This document shows positions 18,890-24,692 of a DNA stretch of 26,171 nt, one piece after another. How positions within the stretch are numbered: position 1 is the first letter of the stretch; the number at the start of each line of letters is the position of its first letter. The notes below the pieces were generated by a model. That model saw nothing but the letters and a program-made list of their open reading frames with translations. It had not been told where the DNA came from and made no database searches. This DNA is from a virus, in the IMG/VR virus record IMGVR_UViG_3300033149_002357, positions 1 to 26,171 of that record. One strand, given 5' to 3'. A program made the translations under genes and the position numbers.

Positions 18890-18919
18890 GTAACATCCTA
18901 GTTGAATATGCTTTTTTGT

Positions 18920-18931
18920 ATTGTATCTTTT
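18920..18931 (-). promoter_or_regulatory. Candidate promoter of the gpW-portal operon
   Basis: AAAAGATACAAT on the minus strand contains the hexamer TACAAT (18925-18920), 31 nt before the gpW ATG. It resembles the TTTAGATATAAT motif before G and tape measure. A degenerate dyad TTGAT-N4-GCCAA lies at 18959-18972 inside the resolvase gene but is not at the usual spacing. Confidence 0.4.
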
Positions 18932-18937
18932 TTTATG

Positions 18938-19351
18938 CTAAATGTCTATTTTTTGTTTTTGGCTTACATCAATGTTTTCTATAAGAATAGTAATTCTGTC
19001 TTCGCCTTCATTCAAATGCTTTCTCACTCTGAGGTCTAAAATCTGATTGTCGTTCTTATAACAAAGTCCTTCTAGCGCATCAAACAGTTGCTTCAGAAGA
19101 GCATCTATATCTTCTGATTTTACCTTAACTATGTCCACATCCATATATAGAAGCAAATGACCTGCGAGCATCTTATCTTGTCTCTGCCTTATGACTTCTG
19201 ATTGTATAAGCTTTTTGGTTGCTCTTGCCTCTTTCGATAATATAATTGTGGCGACTTGTTTGCCGTTAAGCCATTTGATTACAGGTGTGTACAAACGGTT
19301 TAAAGCTGTTGGTTTTATTTGCTTCAGTTTTATTATTATTTTGTTTTTCAT
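18938..19351 (-). CDS. rusA: RusA-like Holliday junction resolvase
   Basis: This 137-residue protein belongs to the RusA endonuclease family, which cleaves four-way DNA junctions as a dimer. The N-terminus has PTALNRLY (14-21) like the family's P-x-x-x-N-x-x-Y, then LSKEARATKKL (38-48). The acidic active site is present: D81, D83 and K87 in SEDIDALLKQLFDAL, and D101 in YKNDNQI (98-104), matching D70, D72, K76 and D91 of E. coli RusA. Length is usual for the family. Its place is odd, as phage RusA genes usually lie in replication or pre-late regions. It overlaps the HNH gene by ATGA. Confidence 0.9.
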   Translation of the reverse strand: MKNKIIIKLKQIKPTALNRLYTPVIKWLNGKQVATIILSKEARATKKLIQSEVIRQRQDKMLAGHLLLYMDVDIVKVKSEDIDALLKQLFDALEGLCYKNDNQILDLRVRKHLNEGEDRITILIENIDVSQKQKIDI

Positions 19352-19854
19352 TTATGGCGACCATGATTTTTATCGAACCCATACAGTCTTTCTGCTTGTT
19401 TTCGTGCATGTATTGCATCTTTTTTTCTTTTAAATCTTCCGAGATATATATTTTTAAAGTCAACCCCTATGCTTGCTTCCCATATTAAATCTCTCTTGTG
19501 CCAAGCTACTCCAACTACACTACTCGTATTGTTTTTTGGAGCTGATTGATTTCTACAATTCTCCCTATTCGTTACTTCTCTTAAATTTCTCAGCCTATTG
19601 TCTGCTCTGTTTTGATTCCTGTGGTCTATTTGATTCTTAGGCATTTCTCCATACTTATAAAGCCATGCAAGGCGATGTGCTTTATATGATTTTCCATATA
19701 TTGATATTTGTGCGTAGCCCCTATTATTGCAGCTGCCAGCGATATGCCCTGCAAGTATCTTGTTGCTTTGCTTTTTTACCCATATAAAAACACCTGTGTT
19801 TGGATCATAATGCAACAGTTCTTTTAATTCTTTCTGTGTGATTTCTTTTTTCAT
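19348..19854 (-). CDS. HNH endonuclease with AP2 DNA-binding domain
   Basis: The preferred ATG (19852-19854) has AGGA 6 nt upstream; an ATG six codons earlier is possible but lacks a site as good. Of 168 residues, about 15-105 form the HNH nuclease: AHRLAWLYKYGEMPKNQIDH (59-78) with H78 as likely catalytic base, followed by N82, N86 and N90 in RNQNRADNRLRNL, and N99 in NRENCRN. Residues about 110-160 (SSVVGVAWHKRDLIWEASIG, then YLGRFKRKKDA) are an AP2 domain, usual in free-standing homing endonucleases of phages. It likely cuts related genomes lacking it. It sits in the accessory block, with a structured leader. Confidence 0.9.
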   Translation of the reverse strand: MKKEITQKELKELLHYDPNTGVFIWVKKQSNKILAGHIAGSCNNRGYAQISIYGKSYKAHRLAWLYKYGEMPKNQIDHRNQNRADNRLRNLREVTNRENCRNQSAPKNNTSSVVGVAWHKRDLIWEASIGVDFKNIYLGRFKRKKDAIHARKQAERLYGFDKNHGRHK

Positions 19855-19860
19855 GTGAGT

Positions 19861-19926
19861 TCCTACGCTCATTAATTTGAAGAAGTCGTAGGAGCGTAGG
19901 AGTTGCTACGACTTCTGCGAATTAAT
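19861..19926 (-). promoter_or_regulatory. Structured leader of the HNH gene with two exclusive hairpins
   Basis: Minus-strand 19926-19906 and 19891-19871 form a 21-bp imperfect inverted repeat (19 of 21 matches) with a 14-nt loop. The loop contains TCCTACGCTC (19901-19892), perfectly complementary to GAGCGTAGGA (19870-19861), which is immediately 3' of the first stem and includes the TAGGA ribosome binding site of the HNH gene. The second pairing would hide that site. A tandem 8-bp repeat CGTAGGAG lies in the plus strand at 19887-19902. Confidence 0.6.
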
Positions 19927-19957
19927 CATGGTGCATTCTAGCACATTTTTGCTTAGT

Positions 19958-20158
19958 TTAACTAAAAAAAGCTTTTGTTTTTATATTTATATATCCTTCA
20001 CATATGTGATTTATTGAGCCGATATTCCTCTTAATGTTAAAAGCAGCACTGTCGTCCGATACTCTGTTCCGCTCACAGTTTTTGCAAATATACGCATCTG
20101 CTTTTGGATTAGAACAGCTTGCTATTTCCATCACTGCTTCTTGGTTATTTTTTTCCAT
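19958..20158 (-). CDS. Small Cys-rich, zinc-finger-like protein
   Basis: The 66-residue product has C15, C25, C28 and C53 in the pattern C-x9-C-x2-C-x24-C, with ICKNCERN and ICEGYI as landmarks. The protein at 22169-22357 has the same plan (FCENCKRN and KCDGYI), so the two are paralogues. Four cysteines suggest one zinc site. Its start overlaps the previous gene by 14 nt, within AATGGAAAAAAATAA. No known family or partner is recognised; nucleic acid or protein binding is a guess. Confidence 0.7.
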   Translation of the reverse strand: MEKNNQEAVMEIASCSNPKADAYICKNCERNRVSDDSAAFNIKRNIGSINHICEGYINIKTKAFFS

Positions 20159-20270
20159 TCAAAATATCCCATATATTTTGTGGCTCTACATTAAAATGCT
20201 TACTTGCTTTTAATACTGTCCGCTGCGTATCCTCTTCAAAATAATTCTCTATTTCTTGTTTAGTTGGCAT
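20145..20270 (-). CDS. 41-residue protein, possibly a helix-turn-helix
   Basis: The ATG (20268-20270) overlaps the stop of the upstream small gene by one base (TAATG) and the stop lies in the start of the Cys-rich gene. The product starts MPTKQEIENYFEEDTQRTVL and has KASKHFNVEPQNIWDILNGK, where A-x-x-F-N-V-x-x-x-x-I-W-x-I-L resembles the second half of a helix-turn-helix. It may be a minimal DNA-binding protein, but it is very short. Support comes from coupled junctions on both sides. Confidence 0.6.
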   Translation of the reverse strand: MPTKQEIENYFEEDTQRTVLKASKHFNVEPQNIWDILNGKK

Positions 20271-20416
20271 TACTTTTTCCCTTTTGCTGATTTAACTATC
20301 TTTTCTGCTTTTATACCTTTGAGAAGTTCTTTTATCTGCTTCTCCCCAAACTCCTGACCGTCTACAAGCAATGAAGTTAGTTGCCCTATATGTCCATCTT
20401 TAAATTTCCCTGTCAT
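20270..20416 (-). CDS. 48-residue basic protein
   Basis: The ATG at 20414-20416 has AAGGAAG about 7 nt upstream. The product starts MTGKFKDGHIGQLTSLLVDG, followed by a charged helix (EFGEKQIKELLKGIKAEKIV) and a Lys-rich end. It is the first gene after the tRNA in this operon and is coupled to the next by TAATG. No family is recognised. Confidence 0.6.
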   Translation of the reverse strand: MTGKFKDGHIGQLTSLLVDGQEFGEKQIKELLKGIKAEKIVKSAKGKK

Positions 20417-20450
20417 ATTGCACTTCCTTTTTTCTAGTTCATCTAAGTCC

Positions 20451-20501
20451 TCAATATAACCAGTAGCAGAAAGGTTGAAAAACTACTGCTGGCTATATTG
20501 A
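20451..20501 (-). repeat. Large imperfect hairpin just after the tRNA
   Basis: 20451-20469 and 20483-20501 form a 19-bp inverted repeat with three mismatches, partly G-U pairs in RNA, and a 13-nt loop. It begins 9 nt after the tRNA 3' end in the transcript. No T run follows, so an RNA processing or 3' end signal is likelier than a terminator. Confidence 0.65.
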
Positions 20502-20509
20502 AAACTCTT

Positions 20510-20585
20510 TGGTTGGTAGAGTGAGATTTGAACTCACATCTGTATCCTTATGAGGGACGAGGACTAACCGTTGTCCTACCTGCCA
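20510..20585 (-). tRNA. tRNA with anticodon CAT (Met, or Ile if the C is modified)
   Basis: The minus strand folds as a canonical 76-nt tRNA including an encoded CCA. Acceptor TGGCAGG pairs with TCTACCA (one C-A mismatch and one G-T). D stem is GGAC/GTCC with a GG-bearing loop. The anticodon loop is CTCATAA, giving CAT. The T stem is GTGAG/CTCAC with loop TTCAAAT, and the 3' end is A-CCA. The anticodon stem has one C-A mismatch at its base. A paired first position argues against an initiator. It lies 172 nt downstream of a promoter inside the accessory block, with hairpins on both sides. Confidence 0.9.
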
Positions 20586-20597
20586 ATACGGTAAACA

Positions 20598-20633
20598 AAG
20601 AAGCCAAATGTATGTAAAATTATTTGGCTTCTT
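20598..20633 (-). repeat. Perfect 12-bp hairpin just before the tRNA
   Basis: AAGAAGCCAAAT (20598-20609) and its exact complement (20622-20633) enclose a 12-nt loop. It ends 12 nt before the tRNA 5' end in the transcript. The region from here to the promoter at 20757 holds no convincing gene. Possible roles are a processing signal or a weak terminator. Confidence 0.65.
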
Positions 20634-20756
20634 GTACTTTAACATATCGAACTTTATCACGTTCATTATTTATTAATCTATAGCTAGATACAACTTATTT
20701 CAAATAGTTGCCAAACTTCTCTTGCTCTTTCTAATCTCTTTTATTGAGATGGTGTA

Positions 20757-20798
20757 AGTATATCATAGGCTGCTTTTGATTCTCTTGACCTATATCAA
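20757..20798 (-). promoter_or_regulatory. Promoter of the tRNA-HNH-RusA operon with CRP/FNR-like operator
   Basis: On the minus strand TTGATATAGGTCAA (20798-20785) is followed after 22 nt by TATACT (20762-20757), which also has a TG one base upstream (TGATATACT, extended -10). The dyad centre falls at -41.5. The dyad overlaps the stop codon of the upstream gene at 20795-20797. Confidence 0.65.
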
Positions 20799-21007
20799 GC
20801 TTTTATGATACCTATTCCACTTGATGCAAATTCCCACTCTAGAGTCCAATGCTCTGTGCTTATTTCATCTGCGTCTGCTAGTTTTTCTAGAAGCTTTTTC
20901 GCTGTTGCCTCATCTAAAGGTTTTTTATATACAAAACACCCTTTCTCAGTAAGAGCAACCACTTCTCCTTCTGATCCTATATGTGAAGATATTAGTTTAG
21001 TTTTCAT
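20795..21007 (-). CDS. Small protein of unknown function, 70 residues
   Basis: This is the last gene of the methyltransferase operon and overlaps that gene by 11 nt. It starts MKTKLISSHIGSEGEVVALT, with a short strand-rich N-terminus, a helix (EATAKKLLEKLADADEI), and a strand HWTLEWEFASSGIGIIK. The plan is alpha/beta with one domain. No family is recognised. Its stop codon lies inside the operator of the next promoter. Confidence 0.65.
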   Translation of the reverse strand: MKTKLISSHIGSEGEVVALTEKGCFVYKKPLDEATAKKLLEKLADADEISTEHWTLEWEFASSGIGIIKA

Positions 21008-21743
21008 TTTCCATTCTCTCTTTAGCTATCTGAAAATAACCATCATCTAATTCTATACCAATAAAATCACGATTTAAATTTCCACATGCCACACCTGTTG
21101 TTCCACTACCCATAGTGAAGTCTAAAACTAATTCACCCTCATTTGTGTAAGTCTTTATTAGGTATTCTTTTACTGAAATAGGTTTTTGAGTGGAGTGAAC
21201 ACATTTTGATGGGTGTATCTTTTGAATATCTATAGAAAGACTGGATGGATATTTTAAAGTGTTCCCTTTCTTGTCCTCATAGTCAAAAGTCTGTTTCCCA
21301 TAATTCTCGCTATGATTACATCCTCTTTTGGAGCCTTGACTATGCTGAGGCTTACCTTCTTCCATTATTGGAAAATAATTTATTCTTTTTCCACTACTAA
21401 AAACACTAATAACTTCATGCTGACCCATAGGCATTATTTTAGCATTTAAATGTCCAGTCTTTAATTGCTTATTCCAAACCCAATCGTACTTAAAGTTTTT
21501 GATGTTTGACACCCTGAGAAAACTACTAAAAGGCTCTGAACCAAACAAAACTATAGCACCATTAGGTTTTATAAGTTTGTTTAGTCTAAGCCACATTTTA
21601 TCAAAAGGAATAACACTATCCCACTTACAAGCAGTAGTTCCATAAGGAGGGTCTGTGATGATAGCATCTACCACTACACCCTTAGCTATCAACTCATCCA
21701 TAACCTCTAAACAGTCACCTTTATATAAATCTATCTTGCTCAT
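20997..21743 (-). CDS. DNA methyltransferase, beta-type N6-adenine/N4-cytosine
   Basis: This 248-residue enzyme would transfer a methyl group from S-adenosylmethionine to an exocyclic amine of A or C. Motif IV is DPPY at 31-34. Motif I, the SAM pocket, is FTMGSGTTG near residues 210-220, after the catalytic motif. Catalytic motif first, SAM motif last, is the order of the beta class. Between them lie KYDWVWNKQLKTGHLNAK and a variable target recognition part (NYFPIMEEGKPQHSQGS). No restriction gene is nearby, so it is an orphan enzyme, probably for protection from host restriction or for regulation. It starts with ATGA overlap to the upstream gene. Confidence 0.93.
   Translation of the reverse strand: MSKIDLYKGDCLEVMDELIAKGVVVDAIITDPPYGTTACKWDSVIPFDKMWLRLNKLIKPNGAIVLFGSEPFSSFLRVSNIKNFKYDWVWNKQLKTGHLNAKIMPMGQHEVISVFSSGKRINYFPIMEEGKPQHSQGSKRGCNHSENYGKQTFDYEDKKGNTLKYPSSLSIDIQKIHPSKCVHSTQKPISVKEYLIKTYTNEGELVLDFTMGSGTTGVACGNLNRDFIGIELDDGYFQIAKERMENEN
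21714..21743 (-). repeat. Duplicated 30-bp gene start, copy in the methyltransferase
   Basis: The first 30 bases of the methyltransferase gene, coding MSKIDLYKGD, match the first 30 bases of the upstream gene (22121-22150) at 28 positions. Identity begins exactly at the start codon. Confidence 0.9.
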
Positions 21744-22150
21744 ACTGAAACTCCCTTTTTCTGTTCATGACAATAATCAAGAAAGTTTTTAAGAACATCT
21801 GGTAGTAATTGTTTTTTTATCTCAAGTGTATCATCAATATACTGTACATCTGTACAAACTAAATTTAAACAAGTCTGAGAGAAACCCTTTATCATTTTAC
21901 AATAAGAGTCAGCATCATCTATGTAGCTATATGTATCTTTATCACCTAACCACATATGAATGCTTCCATCAAACTTCACATAAGCACTTCCAATTTCTTC
22001 TGCTTCGCAAGGGGAGTTGTCTGGTTCCCATGCAGTAACCTCATAAAGAGTCACGCTTATGGTGTGGGTTATGTCTGCATCTATCCTCATAAAATATAAA
22101 TTGGGAACCAACTCTATGTAGTCACCTTTATATAAATCTATTTTACTCAT
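21740..22150 (-). CDS. Unknown protein with methyltransferase-like first ten residues
   Basis: The 136-residue protein starts MSKIDLYKGD, identical to the first ten residues of the next gene's methyltransferase, then diverges (YIELVPNLYFMRIDADITHT). The remainder lacks any methyltransferase motif and contains EPDNSPCEAEEIGSAYVKFD and a C-terminal helix with four of its five cysteines in the second half. The RBS is AAGGAG about 8 nt upstream. The shared start reads as a recombination scar that gave the gene a new leader, or as the remnant of a methyltransferase start. No function is recognised. Confidence 0.75.
   Translation of the reverse strand: MSKIDLYKGDYIELVPNLYFMRIDADITHTISVTLYEVTAWEPDNSPCEAEEIGSAYVKFDGSIHMWLGDKDTYSYIDDADSYCKMIKGFSQTCLNLVCTDVQYIDDTLEIKKQLLPDVLKNFLDYCHEQKKGVSV
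22121..22150 (-). repeat. Duplicated 30-bp gene start, copy in the 136-residue gene
   Basis: This is the partner of 21714-21743, with 28 of 30 identical bases including the start codon. The two copies are about 407 bases apart in direct orientation, so recombination between them would delete the gene between. Confidence 0.9.
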
Positions 22151-22168
22151 CTCTTGTCTCCTTATATT

Positions 22169-22357
22169 TTATGTTTTTATATACCCATCACACTTATAGC
22201 TGACAGGATTTGTTTTTAAGCTCTTGGTCATTCTAAACTCTCCCCATTGTTGATTTTCTACAACATCCCACATATCTATATTTCTTTTGCAATTTTCACA
22301 AAAATCTTTCTTGTTTTCGCTTGCACATGCTGGTTCGTCTTGTCTAAGCTGTTTCAC
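22169..22357 (-). CDS. Small Cys-rich protein, paralogue of the one at 19958-20158
   Basis: This 62-residue protein starts at a GTG that overlaps the upstream stop (GTGA), with AAGGA 6 nt upstream. Its cysteines are C11, C20, C23 and C56, with FCENCKRN and KCDGYI matching the ICKNCERN and ICEGYI of the protein at 19958-20158. The spacing between the second pair and the last Cys is longer here. One zinc site is likely. The family is not recognised. Confidence 0.75.
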   Translation of the reverse strand: MKQLRQDEPACASENKKDFCENCKRNIDMWDVVENQQWGEFRMTKSLKTNPVSYKCDGYIKT

Positions 22358-22518
22358 TTTTCATCCTTTTTTATAAGCAACTCCGAAAACATAAGCTGAA
22401 TACATATATCAGCATTAATCCACTTGCCTCTTGTTTTTCTATTTGACTTGCTTTCCATGAAGCGCAAACACTCTTTTTTCTTCACACAATTTAGTCCACT
22501 ACACTTTTGGATACTCAT
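22354..22518 (-). CDS. 54-residue Cys-rich phage protein
   Basis: The ATG at 22516-22518 overlaps the upstream stop (ATGA) and the end overlaps the next gene (GTGA). The product starts MSIQKCSGLNCVKKKECLRF with C6, C11 and C17, and has C39 later. The C-S-G-x-x-C-x5-C-x-R pattern is common in short phage proteins encoded among accessory genes and suggests a zinc or Fe-S site. The function of such proteins is unknown to me. The chain of overlapping starts and stops supports that it is real. Confidence 0.7.
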   Translation of the reverse strand: MSIQKCSGLNCVKKKECLRFMESKSNRKTRGKWINADICIQLMFSELLIKKDEK

Positions 22519-22910
22519 TTTAATAACTCTGGATTTTCTTGTAGTGTTCCTATTATTTTTAGGTTGTCTATTCTTCCATTATCATACCAAAGACAAACAG
22601 CTTTAGAATTATTTAAAATATTTATTTCGTATCTTAAATCTTCATAATTAAATTCAAACCATCCAGTGTAAGAAAACTTTTTATTATTTCTTTCTGTAAA
22701 TTCAAACTCAAAAACACTACAATCAGCATAAATCTTTTTATCACTTATGTCTGTTTTGCCTATGTAGTTGAAGTATTTATGCTTATTATTAGGTTGAATT
22801 AAAGTTACAGTGTTGCTTCTCTCTAATAACATACCTTTTAAATCTATTACAAATCTATATTCGTCTTTATTTATGAACTCTTTACCATCCCATACTATAA
22901 ACTCATTCAT
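22515..22910 (-). CDS. YopX-family protein, copy 2
   Basis: This 131-residue protein has the family plan: an N-terminal F-x-V-W-D (FIVWDGKEF), a middle YFNYIGKTDISDKKIYADCSVF (in the place of the usual Y-T-G-L-x-D-x-x-x-x-x-I-Y-E-G-D), and the C-terminal IIGTLQENPELL, which matches the GN-x-x-EN-PEL ending. YopX proteins are common in phages and prophages of many bacteria; their job is unclear. It starts right after the stop of a 34-residue gene, whose end supplies the GGGAG ribosome binding site. Confidence 0.8.
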   Translation of the reverse strand: MNEFIVWDGKEFINKDEYRFVIDLKGMLLERSNTVTLIQPNNKHKYFNYIGKTDISDKKIYADCSVFEFEFTERNNKKFSYTGWFEFNYEDLRYEINILNNSKAVCLWYDNGRIDNLKIIGTLQENPELLK

Positions 22911-23015
22911 CTAGTCTCCCTTAAATCTAAACTTACACGATATCATAAACAGCAAAGTAAATGACGCAAATGCACTCATAACTAAACATGGTATTACTTG
23001 ATAATTTTCAATCAT
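22911..23015 (-). CDS. 34-residue single-span membrane protein
   Basis: The ATG at 23013-23015 follows AAGG and lies 25 nt after a -10 hexamer, so it is the first gene of its operon. The product starts MIENYQVIPCLVM, has one hydrophobic span of about 20 residues (VIPCLVMSAFASFTLLFMI, about residues 7-25), and a basic end (CKFRFKGD). The stop directly touches the next start. It may be a tiny membrane-acting factor or act mainly as a leader for the YopX gene. No family is recognised. Confidence 0.6.
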   Translation of the reverse strand: MIENYQVIPCLVMSAFASFTLLFMISCKFRFKGD

Positions 23016-23039
23016 ATTCAACCTTTTTTTATTTATAGT

Positions 23040-23081
23040 ATTTTACCATCTTGGCATGTGGAAGTGCTTGATTCATGTCAA
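23040..23081 (-). promoter_or_regulatory. Promoter of the YopX-methyltransferase operon with CRP/FNR-like operator
   Basis: Minus-strand TTGACATGAATCAA (23081-23068) is followed after 22 nt by TAAAAT (23045-23040) with TG one base upstream (TGGTAAAAT, extended -10). The dyad centre falls at -41.5. The dyad contains the stop codon of the upstream gene (23073-23075). Confidence 0.65.
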
Positions 23082-23315
23082 GATTTTTCTCTTAACTGAT
23101 TTGAACCAAGACTTAAACTTTCTTGGTTTCACTTGAGACATAAAATGTCCTTCCTCTAACTTACTCTGAGGCACTACCCATAGAACTTCATCCATAAAAG
23201 CAAGATAAGGCTCATTTATGTGAAGAGCGTCAACCTCGACACCATCTACTGCCTCGGCTAGTAAGTTTAGTTCTTCTTGGCTCTCTATGAGGATTAAGAC
23301 TCCATGTTTAAGCAA
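23073..23315 (-). CDS. Unknown acidic-to-basic 80-residue protein
   Basis: Translation likely starts at a TTG (23313-23315) preceded by AGGGG 7 nt upstream, overlapping the MazG-like gene by 8 nt. The product has a strand-helix N-terminus (GVLILIESQEELNLLAEAVD), a second strand region with EPYLAFMDEVLWVVP, and a basic tail (KPRKFKSWFKSVKRKIL). An alpha/beta domain with a nucleic-acid- or membrane-binding tail is plausible. No family is recognised. It ends within an operator, closing this operon. Confidence 0.6.
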   Translation of the reverse strand: MLKHGVLILIESQEELNLLAEAVDGVEVDALHINEPYLAFMDEVLWVVPQSKLEEGHFMSQVKPRKFKSWFKSVKRKILT

Positions 23316-23610
23316 TAGTTATCCCCTTGTCTATTGAGTATTTCATCCAGTCTAAAACTTTTAGTTTTTTTATGCTAATTTTATTTTTATGAAATATCTC
23401 GCTTTTATTTAGAATACCTTTATCTGTCAACAACTCTACTACACCTAATAAATCTGCTAACTCGTTTTGTATTTTCTCTCTATTTGTGTTTATCCCTTTT
23501 GGCTCAACATCTTCTAATCCAAAAAGCAGTGCTTTACTTATTTCTTTTGATACTTCTACACACTCTTCGCTTACTTTTTGTAGCAAGTGTTCTTTTATTG
23601 TTAAACTCAT
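23308..23610 (-). CDS. MazG-like nucleotide pyrophosphohydrolase
   Basis: This 100-residue protein belongs to the all-alpha NTP pyrophosphohydrolase group that splits nucleoside triphosphates to monophosphate and pyrophosphate with Mg2+. The metal-binding motifs are E-E-x-x-E (15-19 in SEECVEVSKE) and E-x-x-D (50-53 in NELADLL). KALLFGLEDVEP and TNREKIQNELADLLGVVELL match the short phage MazG-like branch. It could adjust nucleotide pools or counter an alarmone signal in the host. It lies between the ACP-like gene and a small gene, in the first accessory operon. Confidence 0.85.
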   Translation of the reverse strand: MSLTIKEHLLQKVSEECVEVSKEISKALLFGLEDVEPKGINTNREKIQNELADLLGVVELLTDKGILNKSEIFHKNKISIKKLKVLDWMKYSIDKGITIA

Positions 23611-23672
23611 CTCTTTTCCTCTGACTCTTTACTTATCATAATGCAACTCCTTGTATTCAACTACTTTTGTCA

Positions 23673-24053
23673 TTATGGTTCAACTTCAAAACCACTTATG
23701 AATGGTTTTTCTTCCAGCACATCTTCTACTTGATTGATGATGTCTTTAACTGTTTGCCATGCCATAACGTTTGAAAAAGGTATGTTATCTAGTCCAAAAC
23801 TTTTTATCACTATATCAGCAAAAGCAACTATATCCATAGCCTCTAGTTTTAAATCAGTAAAATAGCTAGATTCTTTTACTTCTTTGACTGAAACAAATTC
23901 GATCAGCATAAGGTCAATAACTTTATCTTTTATATCATCTCTTAACATGCCTTCTTTTTCCTCTACTACATATTTTCTTTTTATATGTTCACGCAACTCA
24001 GTTTTTTCTTCTTCCGTTAGCTGCTTAACTAAATTTACTATCTTTTCTATCAC
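23673..24053 (-). CDS. Acyl-carrier-protein-like protein lacking the carrier serine
   Basis: A GTG start (24051-24053) with GGAG 6 nt upstream overlaps the upstream stop (GTGA), giving 126 residues. Residues about 38-110 read as an ACP fold: DDIKDKVIDLMLIEF (helix 1), then ESSYFTDLKLEAMDIVAF (61-78) aligning with the ACP pattern S-F-x-x-DLGADSLD, then a helix ending IKSFGLDNIP (83-92) and WQTVKDIINQV (99-109). At the phosphopantetheine position, DSL is replaced by EAM: residue 72 is Ala (codon GCT), so no prosthetic group can attach there. Residues 1-35 are an extra charged helix. The role is probably binding a partner protein rather than carrying acyl groups. Confidence 0.7.
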   Translation of the reverse strand: MIEKIVNLVKQLTEEEKTELREHIKRKYVVEEKEGMLRDDIKDKVIDLMLIEFVSVKEVKESSYFTDLKLEAMDIVAFADIVIKSFGLDNIPFSNVMAWQTVKDIINQVEDVLEEKPFISGFEVEP

Positions 24054-24253
24054 TCTTGCTCCTTTAACTCTACTGGTTCGTCTTCCCATGTTAGTTTTTT
24101 GCCTATTAGTTTTTCTATTGAGCCTTTTGGTATGGGAATTGGGTCCGACCCTTCTTTGGTCTCCCAAACTGCCACTCCCCTCTCTGGTTTATTTAAGTAA
24201 ATAAATTCTACTGGATGCTTGTGAAAATCTGTGTCTACTGCTATATATGCCAT
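24050..24253 (-). CDS. Unknown 67-residue protein
   Basis: The ATG is preceded by AGGAG 6 nt upstream. The product starts MAYIAVDTDFHKHPVEFIYL, then has VAVWETKEGSDPIPIPKGSI and ends with an acidic LTWEDEPVELKEQE. A small beta-rich fold is likely. It overlaps the ACP-like gene by four bases and follows the first YopX gene by three bases. No family is recognised. Confidence 0.65.
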   Translation of the reverse strand: MAYIAVDTDFHKHPVEFIYLNKPERGVAVWETKEGSDPIPIPKGSIEKLIGKKLTWEDEPVELKEQE

Positions 24254-24256
24254 AAT

Positions 24257-24628
24257 CTACTCCTGTATTCCTGCTACTTTAATATAGTCTTTATTTTCAA
24301 GCATTTTTATGTAGTCTTTCATCGTCATTGTCGCAGTATTACTACTATCATAAATGTCTGCGCATATATCCCCACCTCCACCATCTTCACTTAAACTAGC
24401 AAATATCTTAGTGCCTTCTGAGTCTATCATTCCTTTCATGTGTATTGCTAGTGTTGATGGGGCTATTTCATAAGTACCGTCTTTGTTCCATATCCACAAT
24501 CTCAGCAGTGGTTTTAAGTCCTTGTTTGTGCTATAAATCTGCATCGCTTCCGACACAAGACCCTCAACATACTCATCACTATCTATCTTCTTTGCTCTGT
24601 ATATTGGTATCTGTGGTTCATTACTCAT
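24257..24628 (-). CDS. YopX-family protein, copy 1
   Basis: The start at 24626-24628 has AGGAG 6 nt upstream and lies 23 nt after a -10 hexamer; a longer in-frame start exists but lacks such a site and would begin before the promoter's start point. The 123-residue protein has IPIYRAKKIDSDEYVEGLV near the N-terminus and IAPSTLAIHMKGMIDSEGTK followed by IFASLSEDGGGGDIC, matching YopX's P-x-T-V-x-x-x-x-GL-x-DKNG-x-x-I-x-E...GD-I order. It differs from copy 2 and may have a different source. The function of the family is unknown. Confidence 0.75.
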   Translation of the reverse strand: MSNEPQIPIYRAKKIDSDEYVEGLVSEAMQIYSTNKDLKPLLRLWIWNKDGTYEIAPSTLAIHMKGMIDSEGTKIFASLSEDGGGGDICADIYDSSNTATMTMKDYIKMLENKDYIKVAGIQE

Positions 24629-24650
24629 AATTTCTCCTAGTATTTGCCAA

Positions 24651-24692
24651 ATTATACATTCTTCATAAGACAAAGTCCTTGACTTATATCAA
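24651..24692 (-). promoter_or_regulatory. Promoter of the YopX-ACP-MazG operon with CRP/FNR-like operator
   Basis: Minus-strand TTGATATAAGTCAA (24692-24679) is followed after 22 nt by a perfect TATAAT (24656-24651). The dyad centre is at -41.5 if transcription starts 7 nt after the hexamer. The dyad contains the terminase stop codon at 24684-24686. Confidence 0.7.

Follow-up and report, generated by a model that had tools for sequence, protein, structure and literature searches.

Is a phage protein that resembles an acyl carrier protein (ACP), with alanine in place of the phosphopantetheine serine, a true member of the ACP family, and what could such a protein do for the phage that encodes it? 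The question is raised by a gene in the window, by which we mean the whole stretch of DNA analysed, 26,171 nucleotides long (positions 1 to 26,171 of IMG/VR virus record IMGVR_UViG_3300033149_002357). The features of the locus are given in Table 1, where L001 and L003 designate the two related genes in other viral contigs (G001 and G003, respectively).

Table 1. Features in and around the ACP-like gene of the window
Feature	Position	Strand	Remarks
Serine-less ACP-like gene	23673..24053	(-)	126 aa, GTG start, stop included; homologues L001:1-243 and L003:4906-5271
N-terminal extension, residues 1-35	23949..24053	(-)	Predicted helical; additional to a normal ACP; L003 has it too (alignment)
ACP-like domain, residues 36-114	23712..23948	(-)	Ser-type ACP profile aligns with residues 34-115
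Codon GCT, Ala72	23838..23840	(-)	Phosphopantetheine serine position (E. coli AcpP Ser36); the three family members all have Ala
Shine-Dalgarno AAAGGAG of the ACP-like gene	24059..24065	(-)	
67-aa gene upstream	24050..24253	(-)	Homologue in G003 (47% in a 75-column alignment), second gene upstream of the ACP-like gene there
MazG-like pyrophosphohydrolase	23308..23610	(-)	Pfam MazG 22.2 bits (cut-off 22.0); PHROG 4856, E 7e-20
80-aa gene downstream	23073..23315	(-)	G003 75% and G001 57% identical
Small-gene block	18890..24683		Variable; terminase to portal
N6/N4 DNA methyltransferase	21000..21743	(-)	Pfam E 1e-29; in the terminase-portal block; resembles the methylases of many phages
YopX-like protein	22518..22910	(-)	Pfam 25.2 bits (cut-off 22.4); G001 relative 35%

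The GTG start of the ACP-like gene overlaps the stop codon of the upstream 67-residue gene by 4 bases (GTGA). Set against the ACP sequence DLGADSLD, the core DLKLEAMD places Ala72 at Ser36 and Glu71 at Asp35 (E. coli numbering), two replacements that a first-pass annotation of this DNA had already noted. The gap-free alignment claimed there holds for this core, which is flanked by a one-residue deletion just before DL and a one-residue insertion between helices II and III. The LEAMD core contains no Ser, Thr or Cys, and a Trp occupies the position of ACP Ile62. The additional N-terminal helix of about 35 residues was also correctly recognised: residues 1–35 precede the ACP-like part, with helices predicted at low confidence for residues 2–10 and 14–33 (2–11 and 15–29 in L003).

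Homology to ACPs extends across the whole domain. Against a profile of 50 serine-type ACPs the window protein scores 22.8 bits, matching end to end over residues ~36–114, whereas the best of 3000 shuffles of its own residues, run against the same profile, reached 11.4 bits (0/3000 as good). Individual database searches returned weak matches from the PDB (phmmer), eight of the nine to ACPs with a best E of 0.07, together with E values of 0.016 for the NCBIfam ACP family and 0.67 for PHROG 5934, 'acyl carrier protein'; PF00550 was not matched in Pfam. The relatives add to this picture. L001, which lies at the cut end of a viral contig and lacks its 5' end, is 70% identical to the window protein, while L003 (122 aa) is 35% identical over its full length, N-terminal extension included (E=4e-17). 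With PF00550 both fall under the cut-off of 20.8 bits (L003, 19.3; L001, 18.8, E 0.002), and L003 matches the solved ACP 2lol with E=6.7e-7 in a PDB search and PHROG 5934 with E 3e-6. A chance resemblance was rejected.

The core motif by itself would have been insufficient, because among at least 120 viral contigs carrying [DE]Lxx[DE]A[hydrophobic]DxxE[L/F] the only clear ACP is L003 (E 4.8e-13 for its ACP match; 0.006 for the next best of the motif-bearing contigs listed). Used directly as a tblastn query against the phage collection, the window protein brought up nothing beyond chance-level matches in tape-measure genes.

Structure prediction and structural search, proposed at the outset as a check, did not turn up an unrelated fold. 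The AlphaFold model of L003 (mean pLDDT 63.5, about 70–81 at residues 71–120) has core helices at 40–54, 78–89, 96–100 and 105–119, consistent with the four-helix ACP fold, plus two N-terminal helices, and nearly every one of its 50 best listed structural matches in the PDB is a carrier protein, with TM-scores of up to 0.71. The model of the window protein, computed from a two-sequence alignment, is poor (pLDDT 47); its top eight fold matches are nevertheless ACPs or ACP-bearing complexes. Since the window model is of low confidence, the predicted fold is taken from the L003 relative and from the sequence. On sequence and predicted fold, the window protein is an ACP homologue without the means of being charged at the normal site.

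Ala occupies the phosphopantetheine position in 3/3 family members, which come from independent phage contigs. One contig, that of L001, came from scans for close relatives, and the L003 phage was reached through terminase synteny (terminase 60% identical), its ACP-like gene sitting in the same terminase–portal interval as in the window. Because all three members share the alanine, with the window protein and L003 only ~35% identical, the residue can be read from these alignments as a family trait, and the concern that it was a lone substitution did not materialise. The three proteins form one clade (98/92), whose branching point among ACPs is not settled in the tree. The phage profile matches 331 of 397 Campylobacterota genomes, and all 31 of these matches taken into the alignment are ACPs that keep the serine.

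The surface of the domain, on the other hand, is not preserved as the first-pass annotation had supposed. In E. coli numbering the window protein and L001 carry E41A, E47I/V, E48K and E49S/N, with F-A-D in place of the helix-II residues L42-V43-M44 (M44D), whereas L003 keeps D35, D38, E41, E47, E49 and D51. The net charge of helix II is -1 in the window protein and L001, -4 in L003 and between -3 and -7 in the remaining ACPs of the comparison. To judge from these substitutions, the recognition face of the window protein is rebuilt, its acidic residues having given way to mostly hydrophobic ones and a single Lys.

This rebuilding bears directly on the suggestion that the protein is a decoy of host acyltransferases, that is, a permanently apo ACP that would occupy AcpS, acyltransferases and other ACP partners, slowing lipid synthesis during infection. 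Charging at the normal site is impossible, the accumulation of apo-ACP is toxic in E. coli, and the serine-less proteins of Ackermannviridae, discussed below, keep or strengthen the acidic surface; all of this would fit an inhibitor of that kind. For the window protein and L001 the rebuilt face argues against a decoy of the canonical ACP partners, since E. coli ACP with the changes L42M, V43E and M44I binds SpoT, FabZ, FabA and PlsX less well or not at all, and M44K abolishes its function (PMC3340395). The family is not uniform in this respect: L003, with several acidic helix-II residues retained, may possibly still bind canonical ACP partners, so that the decoy role is possible for that member. 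Overall we regard this explanation as unlikely, yet as the second most probable of those considered.

In all three phages the ACP-like gene is found among a block of small genes upstream of the portal gene. Capsid, portal or tail genes of these phages recur in a further phage record, G002, and in L022, a portal-bearing Campylobacterota MAG contig without the ACP block that came from one of two scans of genome contigs, the other having found no ACP relative; based on this one MAG contig, the shared genes suggest that the phage host belongs to Campylobacterota. In G002 and L022 the terminase–portal block is missing and a single gene of 70–73 aa joins terminase and portal, so the ACP-like gene occupies the position expected of an accessory gene. 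The 80-residue gene is the only downstream neighbour common to the three phages; neither this gene nor the upstream 67-residue gene has a PHROG match, and, in the three phages compared, the conserved neighbours of the ACP-like gene imply no binding partner.

A second proposal was that the protein modulates a stringent-response enzyme (SpoT/Rsh), perhaps in concert with the adjoining MazG-like pyrophosphohydrolase, under a common theme of nucleotide stress. E. coli ACP does bind SpoT, via helix II (PMC3340395), and the MazG-like gene does come next in the window, although the two genes described as directly adjoining are 62 nt apart and the Pfam match to MazG barely passes its cut-off. Vibrio phage 150E35-1 (253-753) shows the same order, a Ser-type ACP followed by an annotated NTP pyrophosphohydrolase, which can be counted in favour and may be coincidence. 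However, SpoT is confined to beta/gamma-proteobacteria (PMC3340395) and the likely host is a member of Campylobacterota, the window protein differs from ACP at the residues involved in SpoT binding, and MazG is absent from G001, G002 and G003 (G001 and G003 possibly being fragments), so that the linkage is not conserved in the contigs of either relative. We therefore rejected the SpoT/MazG theme as very improbable.

Could the protein still be a functional carrier, and its gene an auxiliary metabolic gene, through another modified residue or a non-covalent route? Phage-encoded ACPs are indeed common (the phage collection yields 244 matching records at E<=0.01), and acpP is accompanied by fabF and fabG in some prophages (PMC8224337). 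Against this, the core offers no Ser, Thr or Cys, for which reason an alternative attachment residue was rejected; a phosphopantetheinyl transferase (PF01648) was not found in the four phage records, all possibly fragments; and in E. coli ACP the change S36T alone yields a non-functional protein (PMC3340395). Only a very slight chance is left to this explanation. That the gene is a host ACP copy in decay and without function, which the loss of the key serine and the accessory location might bring to mind, is scarcely credible and was rejected, given that the reading frame is complete in both the window and L003 and stays open across the available part of L001, that members ~35% identical share the same Ala, that the ribosome-binding site is good and the start coupled, and that across the domain the window and L001 differ with dN 0.21, dS 1.23 and dN/dS 0.17, values that are approximate with dS near saturation. 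This ratio argues that the ACP-like domain is under purifying selection even though acyl carriage at the normal site is impossible.

The explanation that we prefer, with a confidence that is about evenly balanced, is that the ACP fold was converted into a non-carrier protein-binding module. It draws on the homology, the predicted fold, the conserved Ala, the purifying selection, the loss of the canonical surface and the accessory-gene position, in a family from which three proteins were recovered, one lacking its 5' end. Mechanistically, a phage lineage probably infecting Campylobacterota would have captured a bacterial-type ACP; with the loss of the serine, 4'-phosphopantetheine would no longer be received at the normal site; the helix-II recognition face would have been rebuilt and a helical N-terminal extension added. 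Most likely the protein would then serve as an adaptor or an inhibitor by binding a single specific protein of the phage or of its host. We infer both protein binding and a partner outside the fatty-acid machinery.

Comparison with known systems places the family as follows. Bacterial AcpP (PF00550; Campylobacterota) has the same four-helix layout, the D-L-x-x-x-[S/A]-x-D core and a C-terminal helix of the type TV.D..N..E, and the phage family departs from it by the Ala for Ser36 and the 35-residue N-terminal helix, with the acidic and LVM residues of helix II lost in the window protein and L001, and the Trp and the one-residue insertion already described. The serine-bearing phage ACPs of PHROG 5934 (Prochlorococcus phage P-HM2, Brevundimonas phage Bajun, Erythrobacter phage ZS04) are likewise phage genes with an ACP fold, but those read keep the serine that is Ala in the window family. 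Outside phages, mitochondrial ACPs are structural subunits of complex I and of mitoribosome assembly intermediates, and they appear among our fold matches; an adaptor or inhibitor with an ACP fold may be likened to them by analogy, the ACP fold serving in both as a protein-binding part. Most mitochondrial ACPs are phosphopantetheinylated, however, and bind LYR proteins with the help of the acyl chain, unlike what is proposed for the window family.

Loss of the serine is not confined to the Ala family. Among 25 phage-encoded ACPs, collected with a Ser-type Campylobacterota ACP as query and picked for diversity, so that the counts are not frequencies, 21 have the serine and four lack it: Salmonella phage Vi01 (Asp), Dickeya phage LIMEstone1 (Glu), Pseudomonas phage Lu11 (Asp) and Vibrio phage K452 (Asp). 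Lu11 and K452 thus carry Asp-type ACP-like proteins outside Ackermannviridae. Five further Ackermannviridae (CBA120, Maynard, EspM4VN, PWKp5 and IME250) likewise show Asp or Glu here, which with Vi01 and LIMEstone1 makes seven of the seven proteins read from the family, and well over 100 Ackermannviridae records match. The proteins of Vi01, LIMEstone1, PWKp5 and Lu11 pass the PF00550 cut-off, yet charging at the normal site is closed to these serine-less proteins.

Most of the records read label the Ackermannviridae gene (PHROG 4154; Vi01, Escherichia phage CBA120, LIMEstone1) as 'acyl carrier protein', and in four of seven records it follows an annotated vWA-domain gene; the vWA protein is a confirmed structural protein in LIMEstone1. 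In the Vi01-like phage Sajous1, one 'putative acyl carrier protein' product was detected by mass spectrometry (PMC10892097). We count the vWA neighbour and this detection as a precedent for the binding-module reading. These proteins resemble the window family in the lost serine and the N-terminal extension, and differ from it in having Asp or Glu rather than Ala, in keeping an acidic helix II and in the adjoining vWA gene; in the tree they stand apart from the Ala clade, with the deep forks not settled. No discussion of serine-less phage ACPs was found in the literature searched, mostly without subscription journals. Tentatively, and as a serious possibility, phages may have exchanged the serine of captured ACPs more than once, each time obtaining a binding protein that is no carrier, such that a class of genes listed as metabolic 'ACPs' would be factors of host takeover or assembly.

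The label generally given to phage ACP genes, that of auxiliary metabolic genes of lipid synthesis, is probably wrong for the serine-less ones. An ACP fold that is under selection without charging at the normal site would exclude a function in lipid synthesis in at least some phages. It raises the question of whether a phage needs the ACP fold or the carrier, which can equally be asked of the Ackermannviridae gene so widely annotated as an acyl carrier protein.
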